Below are positions 56,232 to 64,000 of a stretch of 64,000 nt of DNA, piece after piece. A program made the translations under genes and the position numbers. Each line of letters opens with the position of its first letter. The first letter of the stretch is position 1. The notes under the pieces were generated by a model. That model was not told the origin of the DNA and did no database searches. It saw only the letters and a program-made list of their open reading frames with translations. The DNA lies in assembly GCA_028042835.1 (NCBI GenBank), contig JAOFOL010000001.1, forward strand, positions 62,001 to 126,000. Direction: 5' to 3'. This DNA comes from Opitutales bacterium (GTDB taxonomy: Bacteria; Verrucomicrobiota; Verrucomicrobiia; Opitutales; Seribacteraceae).

Positions 56232-56768
56232 ATGAGTACAGTATCCATCGAGTATTCCCAAAAGTTGACTTCAATCCAGAGGTCCTTGTATGCATTTATA
56301 CTTTCATTATTGCCTAATCGAACGGAAGCCGAGGATGTTTTGCAAGAAACGAATTTAATTTTGTGTAAGAAAGCACACGAATATGATCCACAAGGTCATT
56401 TTCAAGCTTGGGCATTTAAAATCGCTCGTTTTCAAGTAATGAAATTTCTAACCAAGAAAAAGCGAAGTAAAATCCATTTTTCAACTGAGATTGTCGAAGA
56501 TATTGCCGCAGAGGAGTTTGACTTGAAAAGAGTTGCGGTCGTACAAAAGGCTCTCGCTATTTGTTACGATTTATTACCTCAAAATATGCAAAAGATTGCG
56601 CACCTAAGGTTTAAGGACGATTCTAGTCTCAAGACCATTTCGGAAAAAGTGGGAAGACCGATGGGAGCCATTTCATCTACCTTATATAGAATCAGGCAAA
56701 AATTAAACGACTGTGTAAAAGAAAAAGTTACCATTGTAGAATCTGAGATGGATTTTAAAAAATCATAA
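56232..56768 (+). CDS. ECF-type sigma factor, Rhodopirellula/Verrucomicrobium group
   Basis: The 178-residue protein has sigma region 2 at about residues 12-80 (Ala-Glu-Asp-Val-Leu-Gln-Glu-Thr-Asn and Phe-Gln-Ala-Trp-Ala-Phe-Lys-Ile-Ala-Arg). Region 4, a helix-turn-helix, lies at about 110-165 (Leu-Lys-Thr-Ile-Ser-Glu, then Ser-Ser-Thr-Leu-Tyr-Arg-Ile-Arg). Regions 1 and 3 are absent, as in ECF sigma factors. It directs RNA polymerase to a dedicated promoter set. The next gene, 48 bases downstream, encodes a membrane protein that likely binds it. No matching promoter motif was identified. Confidence 0.93.
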   Translation: MSTVSIEYSQKLTSIQRSLYAFILSLLPNRTEAEDVLQETNLILCKKAHEYDPQGHFQAWAFKIARFQVMKFLTKKKRSKIHFSTEIVEDIAAEEFDLKRVAVVQKALAICYDLLPQNMQKIAHLRFKDDSSLKTISEKVGRPMGAISSTLYRIRQKLNDCVKEKVTIVESEMDFKKS

Positions 56769-56816
56769 TCAATCGTGTAATATAAAATAGCTTTGTGCTA
56801 ATACACTGCATACCCC

Positions 56817-57806
56817 ATGAATATCTCAAATACTGAATTCGATACTTTGGTAAGCAAAGCTTTAGATTCCAATTTATCTGCATCTGAAAATGAACTTCTT
56901 ACTTCTGCTCTAAAGGATGAACCAAATTTACAAAGAAGGTATTGTAATTTTATTTTACATGAGTCCCTTCTGCATTGGGAGTCGGAAGTAATTCCCGAAG
57001 AGGAGCCAAATGTAATAATGTTTCCTTTTTGGGTCTTATTATCTTCTGCAGCGGCTGTCTTCGTTTGCTTGTTTTCAGCATGGTTTCTTCATCAAGAATA
57101 TTCTTTAAATGTAGAAGAAGAACAGTTTGCTATAAATACTCTTCCTGTCCAATCAGTTCAATCTTCCGAAATATTTAGCCAACCAGTTGCAGCCATGAGC
57201 AATGAAGTAGTTCACAAATCATTACTTGATGATTCCCTAGAACTTATTCAAATGCTTTCTGACGGTGATTCATACATAGATGGTGCTTCCCTAATGTTAC
57301 GAAATGGTTTTTCTTTTGTCTCAAGAGACCATCAACTTTCAACCTCTTCTATTGACGGTGTTTTACCCTTAAATGATACTCAGATGATTTTATTTCGGGA
57401 AATGTCCGTAGATACTATTTCTCAAAGATCCGAAGCCATTGAAACAATACGCGTTTATGATCTTAAAAACCATCCTTCGAATTTTGAGAATATTGTAGAT
57501 GCTTCAGTATGTTTTAACCAAAGCCATTCTGATTTTGGTGATTCAACAGAATTTTCTTTGTCCCTCTTGGCTGTTAATGATTTAGAAGAAAACAATTTTG
57601 TTGAAGTTGGTTCATCATCGCAGGTTTTGAATAGTGATAATGATCACTCGACCTGGGAACGCGTCGATACTACATTTATCCTTCCTGAAGGGACCGATTA
57701 TTTGGTTGTCTCCTTGGTGGCTAAAAAGAGCGGGCCAAGTGCTTTAAATTCTAATTTGCAAAGTTTTTTTGCTGATGAATTAGAGCTTTCTTTTGCAGGT
57801 ATATAA
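56817..57806 (+). CDS. Membrane-anchored partner of the ECF sigma factor (anti-sigma-like)
   Basis: The 329-residue protein begins with a short cytoplasmic helical domain (residues 1-58, with Leu-Leu-Thr-Ser-Ala-Leu-Lys-Asp-Glu-Pro and Arg-Arg-Tyr-Cys) of the kind found before FecR-type anti-sigma proteins in Planctomycetota and Verrucomicrobiota. One membrane span follows at about 62-84. The periplasmic part (about 110-329) ends in a beta-rich, jelly-roll-like domain that may bind a ligand. Position 48 bases after the sigma gene supports a sigma/anti-sigma pair. No zinc-binding His-x3-Cys-x2-Cys motif is seen, so it is not a ZAS-type anti-sigma. Confidence 0.7.
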   Translation: MNISNTEFDTLVSKALDSNLSASENELLTSALKDEPNLQRRYCNFILHESLLHWESEVIPEEEPNVIMFPFWVLLSSAAAVFVCLFSAWFLHQEYSLNVEEEQFAINTLPVQSVQSSEIFSQPVAAMSNEVVHKSLLDDSLELIQMLSDGDSYIDGASLMLRNGFSFVSRDHQLSTSSIDGVLPLNDTQMILFREMSVDTISQRSEAIETIRVYDLKNHPSNFENIVDASVCFNQSHSDFGDSTEFSLSLLAVNDLEENNFVEVGSSSQVLNSDNDHSTWERVDTTFILPEGTDYLVVSLVAKKSGPSALNSNLQSFFADELELSFAGI

Positions 57807-57902: not shown

Positions 57903-59126
57903 ATGAAATATTTATTGTTTGTAATTTGGTTGGTGTTTACTTGTAAATCTTTCTCCAAGGATTGGCCTCGATTTGGGGGCATAAAGGGTGATTTTACTTC
58001 GGGTGAAAGTGGGTTGAAGAAAGACTGGAAAGCGGCAGATCCTGATGAACTTTGGAAACTTGATGTTGGACTTGGCTTTTCGTCTGTTATTGAATCAAAT
58101 GGTCTTGCCTATACAAAGGGTTATTCAGACGGAAAGATTCTGTTATTTTGCGTGGATGCTGCAAATGGAAAAGTAATATGGAAAAAACAATTTCCCTGCT
58201 CGAAAGGTGATAATTACTTTAAAGGTGGTAGCCGATCTACACCAGTAGTTTACCATAAAAAACTTTACACGATAACTCATGACGGTGATTTTTATTGTAT
58301 AGACGCGTTGAAAGGAACCATTATTTGGGGTGTAAATTTAGTTGATGATTTAGGGGGTATGCGCCCGACTTGGGGCTACGCCGGTTCTCCTGCGATTGTT
58401 GGTCAAAATGTAATTTTGGCAGTAGGGGCAAAAGAATCTGCCCTTGTAGCTTTTAATAAAGATAATGGTAATGTAGTCTGGAAAAGTGGAAATTATGAAG
58501 CTTCATATTCAACTCCCTGTAGGCTTCAAGGCACCGAAGAAATAGCGGTTTTTCATGGATCAGGTTTATCGATTCATGGGTTGAGTGATGGGACAGTCAA
58601 AAGATTTTATCAGCATAAAACACGGTATGGTATTAATGCTTCCCAGCCCATTCAGATTGGGAAAAAACTATTAGTATCGAGTGCTTACGGGAAAGGCTCC
58701 GCATTGGTGGATTTTTCAAAAACTAAACCTCGGATTGAATGGAAAACCGAGAAAATAGCTAGTCAAATGGCAAGTTCTGTTTACAAAGACGGTTATGTAT
58801 ACGGTATCCACGGACAGGCAGGCACCAGATCTAAATTTTCTACCCTCTTTTGCCTTGATATAAACAAAGGAAAAGTTTCTTGGGAAAAAAAAGGCTTTGG
58901 TCTCGGCACGTTAATCTTAGTTGAGGATACCTTGGTATTATTATCTGAAAACGGGGAACTAGTTTTAGTAGATGCGATTCCTGAAAAGTTTCAGGAATTA
59001 GCGAACTTTCAGGTTTTGTCAGGAAAAGATAACTGGGCTCCGCCAACCTATTCTAATGGAAGGTTGCACTGCCGTTCGAGCGATGGCGAGTGGAAATGTT
59101 TAGCTATGGGTTCTACTTACTACTAG
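57903..59126 (+). CDS. Exported PQQ-type beta-propeller protein
   Basis: The 407-residue protein has a signal peptide (about residues 1-18) and the Asp-Trp-Pro-Arg-Phe-Gly-Gly start seen in exported quinoprotein-like proteins of Verrucomicrobiota. Propeller blades are marked by Asp-Ala-x-x-Gly-x-Ile/Val-x-Trp repeats, for example near residues 80-90, 133-142 and 184-194. It resembles BamB and PQQ-dependent dehydrogenases in fold, but I see no evidence for a bound quinone or metal site. Its last four bases overlap the convergent MarR gene. It may depend on the sigma factor upstream; this is positional inference. Confidence 0.82.
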   Translation: MKYLLFVIWLVFTCKSFSKDWPRFGGIKGDFTSGESGLKKDWKAADPDELWKLDVGLGFSSVIESNGLAYTKGYSDGKILLFCVDAANGKVIWKKQFPCSKGDNYFKGGSRSTPVVYHKKLYTITHDGDFYCIDALKGTIIWGVNLVDDLGGMRPTWGYAGSPAIVGQNVILAVGAKESALVAFNKDNGNVVWKSGNYEASYSTPCRLQGTEEIAVFHGSGLSIHGLSDGTVKRFYQHKTRYGINASQPIQIGKKLLVSSAYGKGSALVDFSKTKPRIEWKTEKIASQMASSVYKDGYVYGIHGQAGTRSKFSTLFCLDINKGKVSWEKKGFGLGTLILVEDTLVLLSENGELVLVDAIPEKFQELANFQVLSGKDNWAPPTYSNGRLHCRSSDGEWKCLAMGSTYY

Positions 59127-59605
59127 TTGTAAAAGCATCTGTTTACTTTTTTTAGAAAATCTATCAGCTGTGCCTTTTGGGAGTCACTTAGTGCACCTAA
59201 GGCTTTTCGTTCAAGTGAATATGCTATTTTAGATGCCTGTTTCCATTTCTCAATACCTTGCGAAGTAAGTTTAATAACTTTCTTCCTTTTGTCATGGGGA
59301 CAATTACTTCTCAGAATAAAATTCTTTTTCTCCATCCTTTCAACTAAAGCAGCTACATTATTTGCATCAGTAAACATTAATTTTACCAAATCCTTTTGGC
59401 AAAATTCTTGAGAATTGACTTCTTTAATCCAACGAAGAGCAGAAAATTGGTCAGCTGTTATTCCAACGCTTTTGAGGCGTTTATTAAAGATTCCATTTAA
59501 TGTAATCCAGCAGGCACGAAGGGCTGAGGGGAATTTTTCGTGAGTGGGGTTGATCAATGAATTTGCAGGTAAACGGACAAGGATGTTTGACAAATTAGTA
59601 CACAC
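59123..59605 (-). CDS. MarR-family transcriptional regulator
   Basis: The product (up to 160 residues) is a winged helix-turn-helix repressor or activator. Residues about 50-125 carry the MarR pattern: Ile-Thr-x-x-Gln-Phe-x-x-Leu-Arg, Asp-Ala-Asn-Asn-Val-Ala-Ala-Leu-Val-Glu-Arg-Met-Glu, then the wing Asp-Lys-Arg-Lys-Lys-Val-Ile-Lys-Leu-Thr-x-x-Gly. The start is uncertain. The GTG at 59605 lies within a perfect palindrome that is probably the operator, and in-frame TTG codons downstream could serve instead. It diverges from the propeller lipoprotein operon, the obvious target. Confidence 0.9.
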   Translation of the reverse strand: MCTNLSNILVRLPANSLINPTHEKFPSALRACWITLNGIFNKRLKSVGITADQFSALRWIKEVNSQEFCQKDLVKLMFTDANNVAALVERMEKKNFILRSNCPHDKRKKVIKLTSQGIEKWKQASKIAYSLERKALGALSDSQKAQLIDFLKKVNRCFYN

Positions 59606-59617
59606 AAGTACTAATTT
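59592..59617. promoter_or_regulatory. Perfect palindrome, likely MarR operator
   Basis: AAATTAGTAC (59592-59601) and GTACTAATTT (59608-59617) are a perfect ten-base inverted repeat around a six-base spacer. The site lies between the MarR gene and the lipoprotein start at 59649. A TTGACA box (59587-59592) abuts it, and TACTAA (59609-59614) stands at 16-base spacing, so a promoter reading toward the lipoprotein could be covered by the bound regulator. Confidence 0.7.
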
Positions 59618-59648: not shown

Positions 59649-61961
59649 ATGTCTAAAAGAATAATTATCCCTTCTATATTTTATGCCATTTTTGTTTTAC
59701 AGGGGTGTATCTCTACTTCACAGAAAACAACCGAGGATCCTGTTGATAAAACAGTTCAATCCGATTGGTTGTCTTGGCGTGGACCGTATGGATCCGGTGT
59801 TTCATCGCAAACTAATTTGCCGGCAGATTTAAACAGTACTTTAATTTGGAGTCACGATATTCAGGGGGGTGGCGTACCTGTTATAGCGGGAAGCAAAGCT
59901 TATCAATTTGGATATTACGGCACAACTGAGGACTTGCAGGAGGCTCTTGTATGCTTCGATACAAGATCAGGTGAAATTCTATGGGAACAGCGTCACAGTG
60001 ATTTTATAAGTGATATCGTATACAACCGCTACGGTGTAGGTGCAGCGTGCGTAGATCCCGCATCTGGTAATGTTTATTTTCAAACCAGTCCGGGATTGTT
60101 AATAGGATATGATTCGAATGGAAATAAATTATGGGAGCGTTCTCTGATGGAGGAATTCGCACGACTTACATTTCCAAATGGACGAACAGGAGGACCATGC
60201 GTTGATGGAAATTTGATAATTATCCATGCAATAACTGCAAATTGGGGTAAACAGGGGCCAGCTAGAGATCGATTTTACGCTTTCGATAAAAAAGATGGTA
60301 AACTGGTTTGGGTGTCGACCCCTGGGATTACTCCAAAGGACAGTTCCTTTGCCCCTTTGATTTTTGAGGATCTACCGAGTGGTCGTCGAGTTTTCTACAG
60401 TGGTACTGGCTGTGGTCATGTGGTATGCATAGATGTTCGTACAGGGCAACCACTTTGGAGGTTTCAAATGTCTTATGGCGGGGTAAATGCAGGAGTCGTC
60501 ATACACGAGGACGCAGTCATTGCAGTGCATGGCAAAGAAAATACCGATAGTACTGTTATTGGAAGGATGGTTGCGATCAAGAAACCCGCGAAGCTTCCAG
60601 GAATAGGAGAAGATATTTTAGTTCTTGGAAAAGATCATGAAATTTGGAGAAATAATGGTATTGAGGCTTTCACAAGTACTCCTGCCTACCGAAACGGAAG
60701 AGTTTACTCAACCATCAAGCGTGGCGAACTTGTTTGCCTAGATGCAAGTTCAGGCGAGGAGCATTGGGTTCTAAAACTTGCTCCTGATCAAATTCACGCT
60801 TCGCCAACCTGGGCTGATGATAAACTTTATGTTCCGATGTTTAATGGCAAAGTTTTCGTGGTAGAGGATGAAGGCTTAAATGCGAAGGTTTTGAGCGAGA
60901 TTGATCTTGGGGCTGCCTGCTTAGCGGCTCCTGCTGTAGCCCATGGACGTGTTTTAGTGCAAGCTAAGAAAAAACTTTATTGCTTTGGCTCGGCTGACCC
61001 AGCACCTGCATTTGTTGCTCAACCTCAAGAGTCGAATAAACACATATCTTCATCATCTGATGGCGATATTGTGTCTTTGCAAGTGGTTCCTGCTGAATTT
61101 ATTTTACAGGCTGGAGAAAATATTCATTTCGAGGTGTTCGGGTTAGATTCGTCTGGTAGAAGGATTAGAAAAATAGAAGAAGGGTTGACCTGGCGCAGAT
61201 GGATACCTCCTACAGCGAAGGTAAAATCAAAAGTAGATGCTGAGATTAGTCCTGAAGGTATTCTTAGTGCAGAAATGAATGCTTCCCTTTCTGCAGGGGC
61301 TCTACAGGTTTCCAGCGGGGGATTATCAGGTACTACCAGAGGTAGAGTTCTTCCGAATTTACCTTATTATGAAGATTTTGAAGAAGATTTTGAATTTGTA
61401 CATACTAGCACTGATAATATCCCTTTTTCGTTTCCGCCACTTTCTTGGCTTGGTGCAAGAATGCGCTGGCAGGTCCAGGATATGGAAGAAAACAAAATTG
61501 CTGGTAACACCCTAGATCGGGTTCTTTTTCAGCGAGCTATTAACTTTATTGGTAATAAGGACATGTCGAATTATACGATGTCTGCTGATGTTATGACAGA
61601 TGGTGATCGTCGAACGAAATCTAACATTGGGTTGATTAATCAGAGGTATATTTTTGTTCTAGTTGGGAATAGTCAAAAACTTGAAGTTGTATCTAATTTT
61701 GATAGATTCCGTCATTCAGTTCCTTTTTCAATTAAGACTAATTCCTGGTATACTTTGAAGACGAGGGTTGATCTAAATGAAATGGGCACTGGAGTCGTAA
61801 GGGCAAAAGCGTGGGCAAAAGATGAACAGGAGCCAGAAAACTGGACCATAGAGGTGGAGCATAACAACGCTCATACGCATGGCGCACCTGGACTTTATGC
61901 GATGTCACCACAAAGCAAAAAGAAAGTTTACATCGACAACATTGCAGTCATACAGAATTAA
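59649..61961 (+). CDS. PQQ-type beta-propeller lipoprotein with C-terminal jelly-roll domain
   Basis: I start this gene at the ATG at 59649, giving 770 residues, not at the in-frame ATG at 59544. The later start sits downstream of the operator and opens directly with a lipoprotein signal ending in Leu-Gln-Gly-Cys (Cys20). The earlier ATG lies inside the MarR gene. Residues about 40-455 are propeller blades with Asp-x-x-Ser/Thr-Gly-x-x-x-Trp motifs. Residues 480-555 form an Ig-like segment. Residues about 560-770 form a concanavalin-like sandwich similar to DUF1080-type domains. It is probably anchored in the outer membrane or periplasm. The next gene starts 20 bases on. Confidence 0.85.
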   Translation: MSKRIIIPSIFYAIFVLQGCISTSQKTTEDPVDKTVQSDWLSWRGPYGSGVSSQTNLPADLNSTLIWSHDIQGGGVPVIAGSKAYQFGYYGTTEDLQEALVCFDTRSGEILWEQRHSDFISDIVYNRYGVGAACVDPASGNVYFQTSPGLLIGYDSNGNKLWERSLMEEFARLTFPNGRTGGPCVDGNLIIIHAITANWGKQGPARDRFYAFDKKDGKLVWVSTPGITPKDSSFAPLIFEDLPSGRRVFYSGTGCGHVVCIDVRTGQPLWRFQMSYGGVNAGVVIHEDAVIAVHGKENTDSTVIGRMVAIKKPAKLPGIGEDILVLGKDHEIWRNNGIEAFTSTPAYRNGRVYSTIKRGELVCLDASSGEEHWVLKLAPDQIHASPTWADDKLYVPMFNGKVFVVEDEGLNAKVLSEIDLGAACLAAPAVAHGRVLVQAKKKLYCFGSADPAPAFVAQPQESNKHISSSSDGDIVSLQVVPAEFILQAGENIHFEVFGLDSSGRRIRKIEEGLTWRRWIPPTAKVKSKVDAEISPEGILSAEMNASLSAGALQVSSGGLSGTTRGRVLPNLPYYEDFEEDFEFVHTSTDNIPFSFPPLSWLGARMRWQVQDMEENKIAGNTLDRVLFQRAINFIGNKDMSNYTMSADVMTDGDRRTKSNIGLINQRYIFVLVGNSQKLEVVSNFDRFRHSVPFSIKTNSWYTLKTRVDLNEMGTGVVRAKAWAKDEQEPENWTIEVEHNNAHTHGAPGLYAMSPQSKKKVYIDNIAVIQN

Positions 61962-61981
61962 TTTTTAAATCTCAATTTCCT

Positions 61982-63493
61982 ATGAAAAGTATAAAAAAAA
62001 TCTTAATTTCGTTCATTTTTTCTTCAACCGCGGTTTTTTCTGCAGATTGGCCAACATGGGGAGGGAATGATACTCGTAACATGGTTTCTTTGGAAACCGG
62101 TCTTGATTTGGATTTCAATCCCGGAGAAATGAACGATGACGAAAGTGTGGATATGAGTACCACAGAAAATGTTAAATGGGTGGCTAAACTTGGATCCCAA
62201 GCTTACGGAAATGTCACTATAGCGAACGGCTATGTTTTCGCTGGCACAAACAATGAATCTCCTCGTGATTCTGGTAAAAAAGGTGATCGGGGAGTTGTAA
62301 TGTGTTTTGACGAAAAAACCGGTAAACTTTCATGGCAATTAGTAATTCCGAAGTTAGGTGCGGGTAAGGTAAGTGATTGGGAATACATCGGTGTTTGTTC
62401 ATCTCCGGCTATCGAGGGAAATAGAGTTTATGTTGTGACCAACAAATGCGAAGTTGTTTGTTTGGATTTAAAGGGTTTTTCGAACGGTAACGATGGACCA
62501 TACATGGAAGAAGCCAATTATGTAAAACCCAAGGGCACCGGAGATGTTCTGAACGAGGAGATAGACGCTGATATTTTATGGATGTATGATATGAGAGACC
62601 AACTTGGAGTATTTCCTCATAATGTTACTAGTTCATCTGCCTTAATCATTGGCGATTCTTTATTCGTTGCTACTTCAAATGGTGTCGACTGGTCTCACAC
62701 CAATATTCCAAGTCCATTATCACCAAGTTGGATTGCTTTAGATAAAAATACGGGTGAATTAATTGGGGAGGATGGTTCGGGTGCCAGTGCGGGTGCACTT
62801 CACGCGGCATGGTCTTCTTTGACTTATGGCAAAATTAAAGATGAAGAAATTTTAATCTGGGGAGGAACGGATGGATTTTGCTACGGTTATCTTAACAAGA
62901 CTCAAAAAGATGAAGATGGATATGATTTATTCCAGCCAAAATGGAAAGTAGATTGTAATGAATTGAGTTATCGAAAAGATAGCGACGGAAAGAAAATACC
63001 ATATGCGACACCTCCTGGTCCAAGTGAACTTATTGGCACGCCAGTTTTGTATGAAGATAAAGTCTACTGTGCAATAGGGCAGGACCCTGAACATGGAGAT
63101 GGAGTGGGGCGATTATCCTGTATTGATGCAAGTAATGGAAAAGTCCTGTGGAAGTATACGGATGTTGGTCGAACAATTTCCACCGCATCTGTTCATGAGG
63201 GTCTGGTATATCTCGCAGAATATTCTGGTATTATTCATTGTTTAGATGCTGAGACGGGGAAGGTGTATTGGACTCATGATTCTTTTAGCCGTATTTGGGG
63301 ATCAACTCTTGTTGTGGATGGAAAGGTTCTTCTTGGTAATGAAGATGGAGATTTACTTATTTTAGATCATGGTAAATCTAAGCCAAAGGTGAAAACAATA
63401 AATATGGGAGCTCCGGTTTACAGCTCTCCTGTTGTTGCTAATGGAACATTATATGTGGCCACTCAAACACATTTGTACGCGATAGGAAAATAA
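61982..63493 (+). CDS. Exported PQQ-type beta-propeller protein
   Basis: The 503-residue protein has a signal peptide (about residues 1-20) followed by Ala-Asp-Trp-Pro-Thr-Trp-Gly-Gly, the usual beginning of exported quinoprotein-like proteins, and blades with Asp-Ala/Glu-x-x-Gly-Lys-x-x-Trp repeats (for example Cys-Ile-Asp-Ala-Ser-Asn-Gly-Lys-Val-Leu-Trp). It lies in the operon begun by the lipoprotein and is followed 14 bases later by the DUF3311-like gene. The tight link with a symporter suggests a role in handling the transported compound. No catalytic residues were identified. Confidence 0.85.
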   Translation: MKSIKKILISFIFSSTAVFSADWPTWGGNDTRNMVSLETGLDLDFNPGEMNDDESVDMSTTENVKWVAKLGSQAYGNVTIANGYVFAGTNNESPRDSGKKGDRGVVMCFDEKTGKLSWQLVIPKLGAGKVSDWEYIGVCSSPAIEGNRVYVVTNKCEVVCLDLKGFSNGNDGPYMEEANYVKPKGTGDVLNEEIDADILWMYDMRDQLGVFPHNVTSSSALIIGDSLFVATSNGVDWSHTNIPSPLSPSWIALDKNTGELIGEDGSGASAGALHAAWSSLTYGKIKDEEILIWGGTDGFCYGYLNKTQKDEDGYDLFQPKWKVDCNELSYRKDSDGKKIPYATPPGPSELIGTPVLYEDKVYCAIGQDPEHGDGVGRLSCIDASNGKVLWKYTDVGRTISTASVHEGLVYLAEYSGIIHCLDAETGKVYWTHDSFSRIWGSTLVVDGKVLLGNEDGDLLILDHGKSKPKVKTINMGAPVYSSPVVANGTLYVATQTHLYAIGK

Positions 63494-63507
63494 ATCAGAA
63501 TTTTTTT

Positions 63508-63720
63508 ATGAGTAAAATTATAATTTGGTCTCTATTCGTAGTGCTCTTTTTCATGCACCAAGATTTTTGGTGGTGGAATGATTCTGAGTTAGTTTTTGGA
63601 TTCATGCCAATGGGGCTAGCTTACCATGCGGGCTTTTCAATTGCGTGCTCTATTTTAGGATGGTTGGCCATCAGATTTGCTTGGCCTCATGATTTGGAAG
63701 CATTTGCAGAAGAAAAGTGA
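63508..63720 (+). CDS. Small membrane protein, DUF3311-like
   Basis: The 70-residue protein has two hydrophobic spans (about residues 4-17 and 32-58) separated by a Trp-rich stretch Phe-Trp-Trp-Trp-Asn-Asp. Proteins of this size and pattern (DUF3311) are usually encoded immediately before sodium:solute symporters, as here, 40 bases upstream. It is probably an accessory subunit or stabiliser of the symporter; this role is inferred from linkage. Confidence 0.75.
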   Translation: MSKIIIWSLFVVLFFMHQDFWWWNDSELVFGFMPMGLAYHAGFSIACSILGWLAIRFAWPHDLEAFAEEK

Positions 63721-63760
63721 GAGTTTATAACATCGGATTTAATTTTTTAAACCTATCCTT

Positions 63761-64000
63761 ATGACCACACTATTTGTAATCATCGGCTATTTATGCCTGC
63801 TTTTGGCTTTAGGTTTTTTTAGCAACCGCCTCTTTCGGGGTACGAGTAAAGATTACTTTGTGGCAAGCCATAGTATTGGACCTTTTCTTCTTTTGATGAG
63901 TGTGTTTGGCACGACTATGACTGCATTTGCATTGGTGGGATCAACAGGAAAATCATTTGAAAGGGGAATTGGAACTTATGGGTTGATGGCATCGATAAGC
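63761..64000 (+). CDS. Sodium:solute symporter family protein, N-terminal part
   Basis: The ATG at 63761 opens a frame that runs to the window edge (80 codons). The first span (about residues 3-21) is followed by the family pattern Thr-Ser-Lys-Asp-Tyr-Phe-Val-Ala-Ser-His-Ser-Ile-Gly and a second span beginning Phe-Leu-Leu-Leu-Met-Ser-Val-Phe-Gly-Thr. This is the conserved beginning of SSS-family transporters, which use the sodium gradient to import sugars, organic acids or amino acids. The substrate cannot be told. The gene is cut by the window edge, not broken. Confidence 0.88.
   Translation, partial: MTTLFVIIGYLCLLLALGFFSNRLFRGTSKDYFVASHSIGPFLLLMSVFGTTMTAFALVGSTGKSFERGIGTYGLMASIS

Follow-up and report, generated by a model that had tools for sequence, protein, structure and literature searches.

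A conserved palindrome as the predicted operator of a MarR-family regulator beside a propeller-symporter gene cluster

Between a MarR-family gene and a divergent beta-propeller gene of an Opitutales bacterium lies a perfect inverted repeat, and the question raised by this locus is whether the repeat is the operator of the adjacent regulator or a product of chance. MarR genes that diverge from a pathway and share a common operator with it are well known, as described in a review (PMC5487221) and in a study of CrtR (PMC5401885). We analysed the 64,000-nucleotide stretch of DNA that contains the repeat (hereafter, the window), the genome from which it came and the corresponding loci of related genomes. 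The features discussed below are as follows (PQQ407, PQQ503 and PQQ805 are ad hoc labels by frame length, not database names):

57903–59126, plus strand: PQQ407 beta-propeller gene, tail to tail with the MarR gene, 4-bp overlap (gene calls, Pfam, gene order)
59123–59557, minus strand: MarR-family regulator, 144 aa from the favoured TTG start (PF01047, 22-sequence comparison, modelled MarR fold)
59587–59592, plus strand: -35 element TTGACA of the propeller-cluster promoter (TTGACA in 24 of 25 aligned rows)
59592–59617, no strand: putative palindromic operator, arms AAATTAGTAC and GTACTAATTT, 6-nt spacer (sequence and conservation)
59595–59614, within the palindrome: conserved operator core TTAGTAC-N6-GTACTAA, 20 bp
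59603–59605, minus strand: GTG start of the longest MarR open reading frame, inside the palindrome, rejected as ancestral (22-sequence comparison)
59609–59615, plus strand: putative -10-like element TACTAAT, 16 nt after the -35 element, also an operator half-site (from sequence)
59649–61961, plus strand: PQQ805, lipoprotein-like beta-propeller, first gene of the cluster, ATG at 59649 (PF13360, E 2e-29)
61982–63493, plus strand: PQQ503, second beta-propeller (PF13360; adjoins PQQ805 in 20 of 20 genus loci)
63761–64000, plus strand: start of a sodium:solute symporter gene extending to 65464 in window numbering (PF00474, E 7e-30)

The palindrome and the genes around it

Analysis of the palindrome, AAATTAGTAC-ACACAA-GTACTAATTT, confirmed the original prediction of a perfect 10-6-10 repeat, with all ten arm pairs matched, and it was the sole match in the window at up to three mismatches (0.01 expected by chance). 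Symmetry alone was weak evidence, because perfect 10-bp repeats are expected about once per window in shuffled sequence: the window held two perfect inverted repeats (arms of 10, gap of 0–10 nt), and 20 dinucleotide shuffles averaged 1.25. Symmetry by itself was therefore rejected as proof of function. The other perfect inverted repeat, ATTCCTGAAAAGTTTCAGGAAT at 58977–58998, was inside the PQQ407 propeller gene and likewise at chance level.

A search for unrelated copies across the genome, which had been proposed as a check, found the 20-bp core exactly once in the source assembly (2.1 Mb, 63% complete). At up to three mismatches the core matched 45 places, fewer than the 160 matched by a reversed control. 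The next-best copy (one mismatch; G000 C79, L002) was rejected as a second regulon member since it was within a 620-aa coding frame, which we read as a flavoprotein subunit. A weak repeated site in three genomes, TTCGTACTTGTATTTACCAA, was also rejected as it was inside one coding frame common to them. The abundance of unrelated copies that would have told against the original prediction was not seen. By eye, no such site was seen upstream of the second MarR gene of the source genome (C72, L094).

The regulator had a MarR winged-helix domain (PF01047, E 1.1e-9, 38.4 bits against a cut-off of 24.6), its monomer model had the MarR fold, and solved MarR proteins were matched both by profile and by fold. 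The best solved relative of its profile was HosA (E 1.6e-18), with other MarR proteins close behind, and no NCBIfam equivalog reached its cut-off with this protein. The original prediction had placed the annotated GTG start of this gene inside the palindrome, suggesting a later start or a leaderless arrangement. The position of the GTG was correct, but the start had been set by the open reading frame caller, not by an annotation. Comparison of 22 genus sequences favoured the later start: all 22 had a start codon in the MarR frame 53–80 nt past the first base of the 20-bp core, the equivalent in the window being the TTG at 59557, and 12 had an in-frame stop downstream of the in-palindrome GTG position. 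That GTG was found in the window only, and five other genus sequences had an in-frame TTG inside the palindrome. A GTG or leaderless start within the palindrome was thus rejected, and the MarR protein is probably 144 aa long. The palindrome is 34 nt upstream of the TTG and, on its other side, 31 nt upstream of the PQQ805 ATG.

Past the window, the propeller strand continued with genes for the symporter and for AMP-ligase-like, aldehyde-dehydrogenase-like and iron alcohol dehydrogenase proteins. Further genes on this strand encoded a propeller, a radical SAM protein, a 180-aa protein, a flavin enzyme of the halogenase group, a glycosyltransferase, a thioesterase, a small membrane protein, a second AMP ligase and an ABC transporter. 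The order of this cluster of approximately 15 genes (59649–64000 and L097:3762–17978) was kept from marine Opitutales to a planctomycete; it was largely kept in the other genera examined, and up to the glycosyltransferase in a Planctomycetales ZRK34 record. PQQ805 is the first gene of the cluster predicted to be under the control of the palindrome; PQQ407 is not counted in it. A gene with a sigma-70 region 2 (ECF-like) and a gene without a Pfam match precede PQQ407 at 56232–57806.

The 180-aa protein (L097:11755–12297) had no Pfam match, and its invariant residues included R77 and E176. The nearest structure to its model (mean pLDDT 92.1) was the DUF98 protein 2nwi (E 1.7e-8), followed by the chorismate lyase 1jd3 (E 1.2e-5). 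The chorismate-lyase-like fold also occurs in the effector domains of GntR regulators, so the modelled fold does not by itself show lyase activity.

Conservation of the site within the genus and across phyla

Homologues of the MarR protein were identified in 31 of 57 related genomes (E 1e-8), and the full motif, TTAGTACTTGTRTGTACTAA, was found at up to three mismatches in 23 of the 57, at 30 places in total. In 22 of these genomes, which all belong to the same genus (27 genomes in the set), the site was between the MarR gene and the PQQ805 propeller gene; the remaining eight motif places were every one inside open frames. The five genus members without the site were three with no PQQ805 match (G006, G017 and G020), one in which the copy was cut by a contig end (G023) and one with no MarR match (G001). 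The gene order PQQ407, MarR (opposite strand), site, PQQ805, PQQ503, symporter was the same in all 20 genus loci examined. Across the 22 genus sequences TTAGTACTTGT was invariant, and the outer end of the opposite arm varied.

A search of genome contigs with the single MarR protein found no relative, whereas a 13-sequence MarR alignment used as the query gave 96 relatives in named genomes; we retained the 80 best. This deep set came mainly from Opitutia/Opitutales and other Verrucomicrobiota, with Phycisphaeraceae and other Planctomycetota; some metagenome bins in it carry record titles that seem doubtful, such as Klebsiella or Akkermansia. A divergent PQQ805 homologue was beside MarR in 68 of these best 80 loci. 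In this set, which overlaps the close relatives from which the pattern was derived, the gap between MarR and propeller gene contained the TAC-N6-GTA core in 67 of 68 loci, the sole exception being L209, and at least five of seven arm pairs in 63 of 68. The reversed pattern gave 7 of 68 and 3 of 68, respectively, and random windows matched in length had symmetric sites in 5 of 1131 cases. The 6-nt spacing was specific. Two other spacers also scored in the deep set: a 2-nt spacer gave matches of any kind in 40 of 68 loci, nine of them symmetric, and a 9-nt spacer gave 12, seven of them symmetric. We took the 2-nt matches to be TACACGTA-like letters nested within the site.

Among the 12 deep loci without a divergent PQQ805, the core was present in three: L205 and L216, which are truncated by contig ends, and L206, which carries PQQ503 in the place of PQQ805. 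It was absent from the other nine, so that none of the nine MarR homologues without a propeller partner had the core in the 180 nt searched. One genome (G028) had a second MarR-propeller pair (L141:976–1563) with its own related site, AAAATACCTGTACGTACTTT. Together, these data settle what symmetry could not, and argue that the palindrome is functional rather than a chance repeat.

The cluster promoter and relatives without MarR

The original prediction of a TTGACA promoter overlapping the palindrome was borne out by the conservation of this -35 element, whose last base is the first base of the palindrome. The row without a call (L093) was in the opposite orientation and has TTGTCAAAC when read on the MarR strand. 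In the 24 rows, the distance from TTGACA to the -10-like element was 16 nt in 21, 15 nt in two and 17 nt in one. The site overlaps these predicted promoter elements of its target. On the propeller strand the invariant arm reads TACTAA, downstream of TTGACA. Given its position 16 nt after the -35 element, one arm seems to be both half-site and -10 element; TACTAAT is a weak match to TATAAT.

Five genomes (G001, G027, G030, G033 and G035) had the propeller gene and no MarR. The TAC-N6-GTA core was in none of their gaps, and by eye all five had TTGAC(A/G/T), 16 nt and a TACTAAT-like element, though G027 and G030 are near copies and the five may partly reflect one loss event. The absence of the core, with the promoter spacing kept, indicated that promoter and operator are separable; these relatives are in effect a natural experiment in which the operator symmetry is gone and the underlying promoter is kept. 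The gap of G001 had an apparent decayed site, TCAGTACTTGCATGTTCTTT, and no MarR match. In the MarR-less loci (L118 of G001, L126, L127, L128 and L129) PQQ407 was directly followed by PQQ805 on the same strand.

Farther afield the promoter letters were less constant than the operator. Of the 67 deep loci with the core, 33 kept TGTCAA (the -35 element) beside the site and 34 did not, the consensus of the latter being about ATAATAC-nTAYAC-GTATnAT. The operator therefore outlives the surrounding promoter letters, and the promoter layout is not universal. In deep loci without TGTCAA (L191, L197, L200, L207, L213, L221, L225 and others), CTATTCTACA-like letters recurred by eye upstream of the site on the MarR strand. 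These read TAGAAT on the propeller strand and perhaps represent a shifted cluster promoter.

In the other direction, no conserved marR promoter was found among the genus sequences. A minus-strand promoter-like match at 59657–59630 was unsupported as a marR promoter, since one was seen versus 1.3 expected by chance and its columns were not conserved. One dimer bound here could act on both genes, in line with the original prediction; judged from its position, control in the marR direction is likely.

A predicted MarR operator, its alternatives and its possible regulon

We consider it highly probable that the palindrome serves the adjacent MarR homodimer as its one dedicated operator, from which the dimer would repress the propeller-symporter cluster and damp marR. 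The phylogenetic footprint is what points to MarR, as the site is found beside MarR and a divergent propeller gene and is absent without MarR. We infer MarR binding to the site, repression and a ligand from these sequence comparisons. In the proposed mechanism, the recognition helices of the dimer would enter the major grooves at TAC and GTA, and its wings the flanking A/T-rich minor grooves. In MarR dimers, recognition helices lie in successive major grooves, with the wings in the minor grooves next to them (PMC5487221, PMC3737563); the TAC/GTA half-sites, about one turn apart and with A/T flanks, would fit this layout. The bound dimer would cover the spacer and the -10 element of the cluster promoter and so block RNA polymerase, and would also damp marR, whose start codon follows the palindrome at a distance of 34 nt. 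MarR would be released from the operator by a ligand that the cluster either produces or imports.

Several other explanations were weighed against this one. That the palindrome arose by chance in an A/T-rich gap is hardly credible: such repeats do occur about once per window by chance, but this one is conserved across phyla with a fixed spacing, which refutes chance unless the deep set is an artefact. A role in RNA, as a leader hairpin or terminator, is very improbable. A stem of ten base pairs closed by a 6-nt loop could form, and paired changes (GTAC to ATAC/GTAT) were seen across phyla, but a dimer site would give the same changes. Further, no terminator-like site was found at the palindrome, variation is confined to one of the two arms, and the overlap with the -35 and -10 elements in the genus would place the palindrome upstream of the propeller transcript.

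Rather improbable, if less so, is that MarR is a bystander and that another regulator binds the site, for example one tied to the ECF-like sigma gene, which is 2.8 kb from the site and listed in 18 of the 20 genus loci. The site is retained where the stretch shows no PQQ407 or sigma neighbourhood, as in L237, which has a sulfatase-like frame there; it is missing in the relatives that keep propellers without MarR, and the core is missing beside the nine MarR homologues that lack a propeller partner. The strongest of the competing explanations, still unlikely, is that MarR binds the site and activates the cluster, or represses only its own gene. The absence of the TGTCAA letters from 34 of the 67 core-bearing deep loci is consistent with this, as is the TAGAAT-like element seen by eye further into the propeller side there; in those genomes the cluster promoter may lie outside the site. 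In the genus, however, the site covers the spacer and the -10-like element, the usual place for a repressor (PMC5487221, PMC5401885).

The preferred reading, repression by MarR from a single operator, has counterparts in known systems. CrtR of Corynebacterium glutamicum is also a MarR protein whose gene diverges from a pathway operon (crt) with one intergenic region controlling both, and its ligand is a pathway intermediate, geranylgeranyl pyrophosphate (PMC5401885, PMC7432914). The CrtR operator differs in containing TTAA, the pathway and ligand are different, and binding is proven for CrtR whereas it is predicted here. HucR of Deinococcus radiodurans likewise has just one site, in the intergenic region that separates the regulator from its divergent target, uricase (PMC5487221), but that target gene is another one and the HucR ligand is urate. 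The MarR protein SCO3205 of Streptomyces coelicolor also binds a pseudopalindrome as a dimer, its recognition helices lying in successive major grooves (PMC3737563); its core is TTnAAnnnTCAA, and it has two operators upstream of its gene. HosA of Escherichia coli, the best profile match among solved structures, has a short palindromic operator and is freed from DNA by 4-hydroxybenzoate (PMC6261655); the similarity is modest, many MarR structures score near it, and operator letters and genomic context differ.

The chorismate-lyase-like gene in the cluster, and HosA as the closest solved relative, led us to guess that the MarR ligand is an aromatic acid or its CoA ester. On this basis we tentatively suggest, as a possibility that we hold to be rather less than even, an undescribed MarR regulon across Verrucomicrobiota and Planctomycetota, in which a single operator in the marR-propeller gap would gate approximately 15 genes making or handling an aromatic compound, the compound or its CoA ester being the ligand. 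Such a regulon would comprise propellers, symporter, acyl activation and reduction, radical SAM protein, chorismate-lyase-like protein, flavin enzyme, glycosyltransferase and transporters. A search of the open-access literature (motif, MarR regulons in Verrucomicrobiota/Planctomycetota, cluster) found nothing on the site or the cluster, which is no proof of absence. MarR-type switches themselves are common; what is unusual here is the depth of conservation, over two phyla, and the uncharacterised cluster.

The operator points to the genes that are probably under common control in this long and widely kept cluster. Its motif offers a query for further genomes, and the metabolite of the cluster might be found by using the MarR protein as a sensor.
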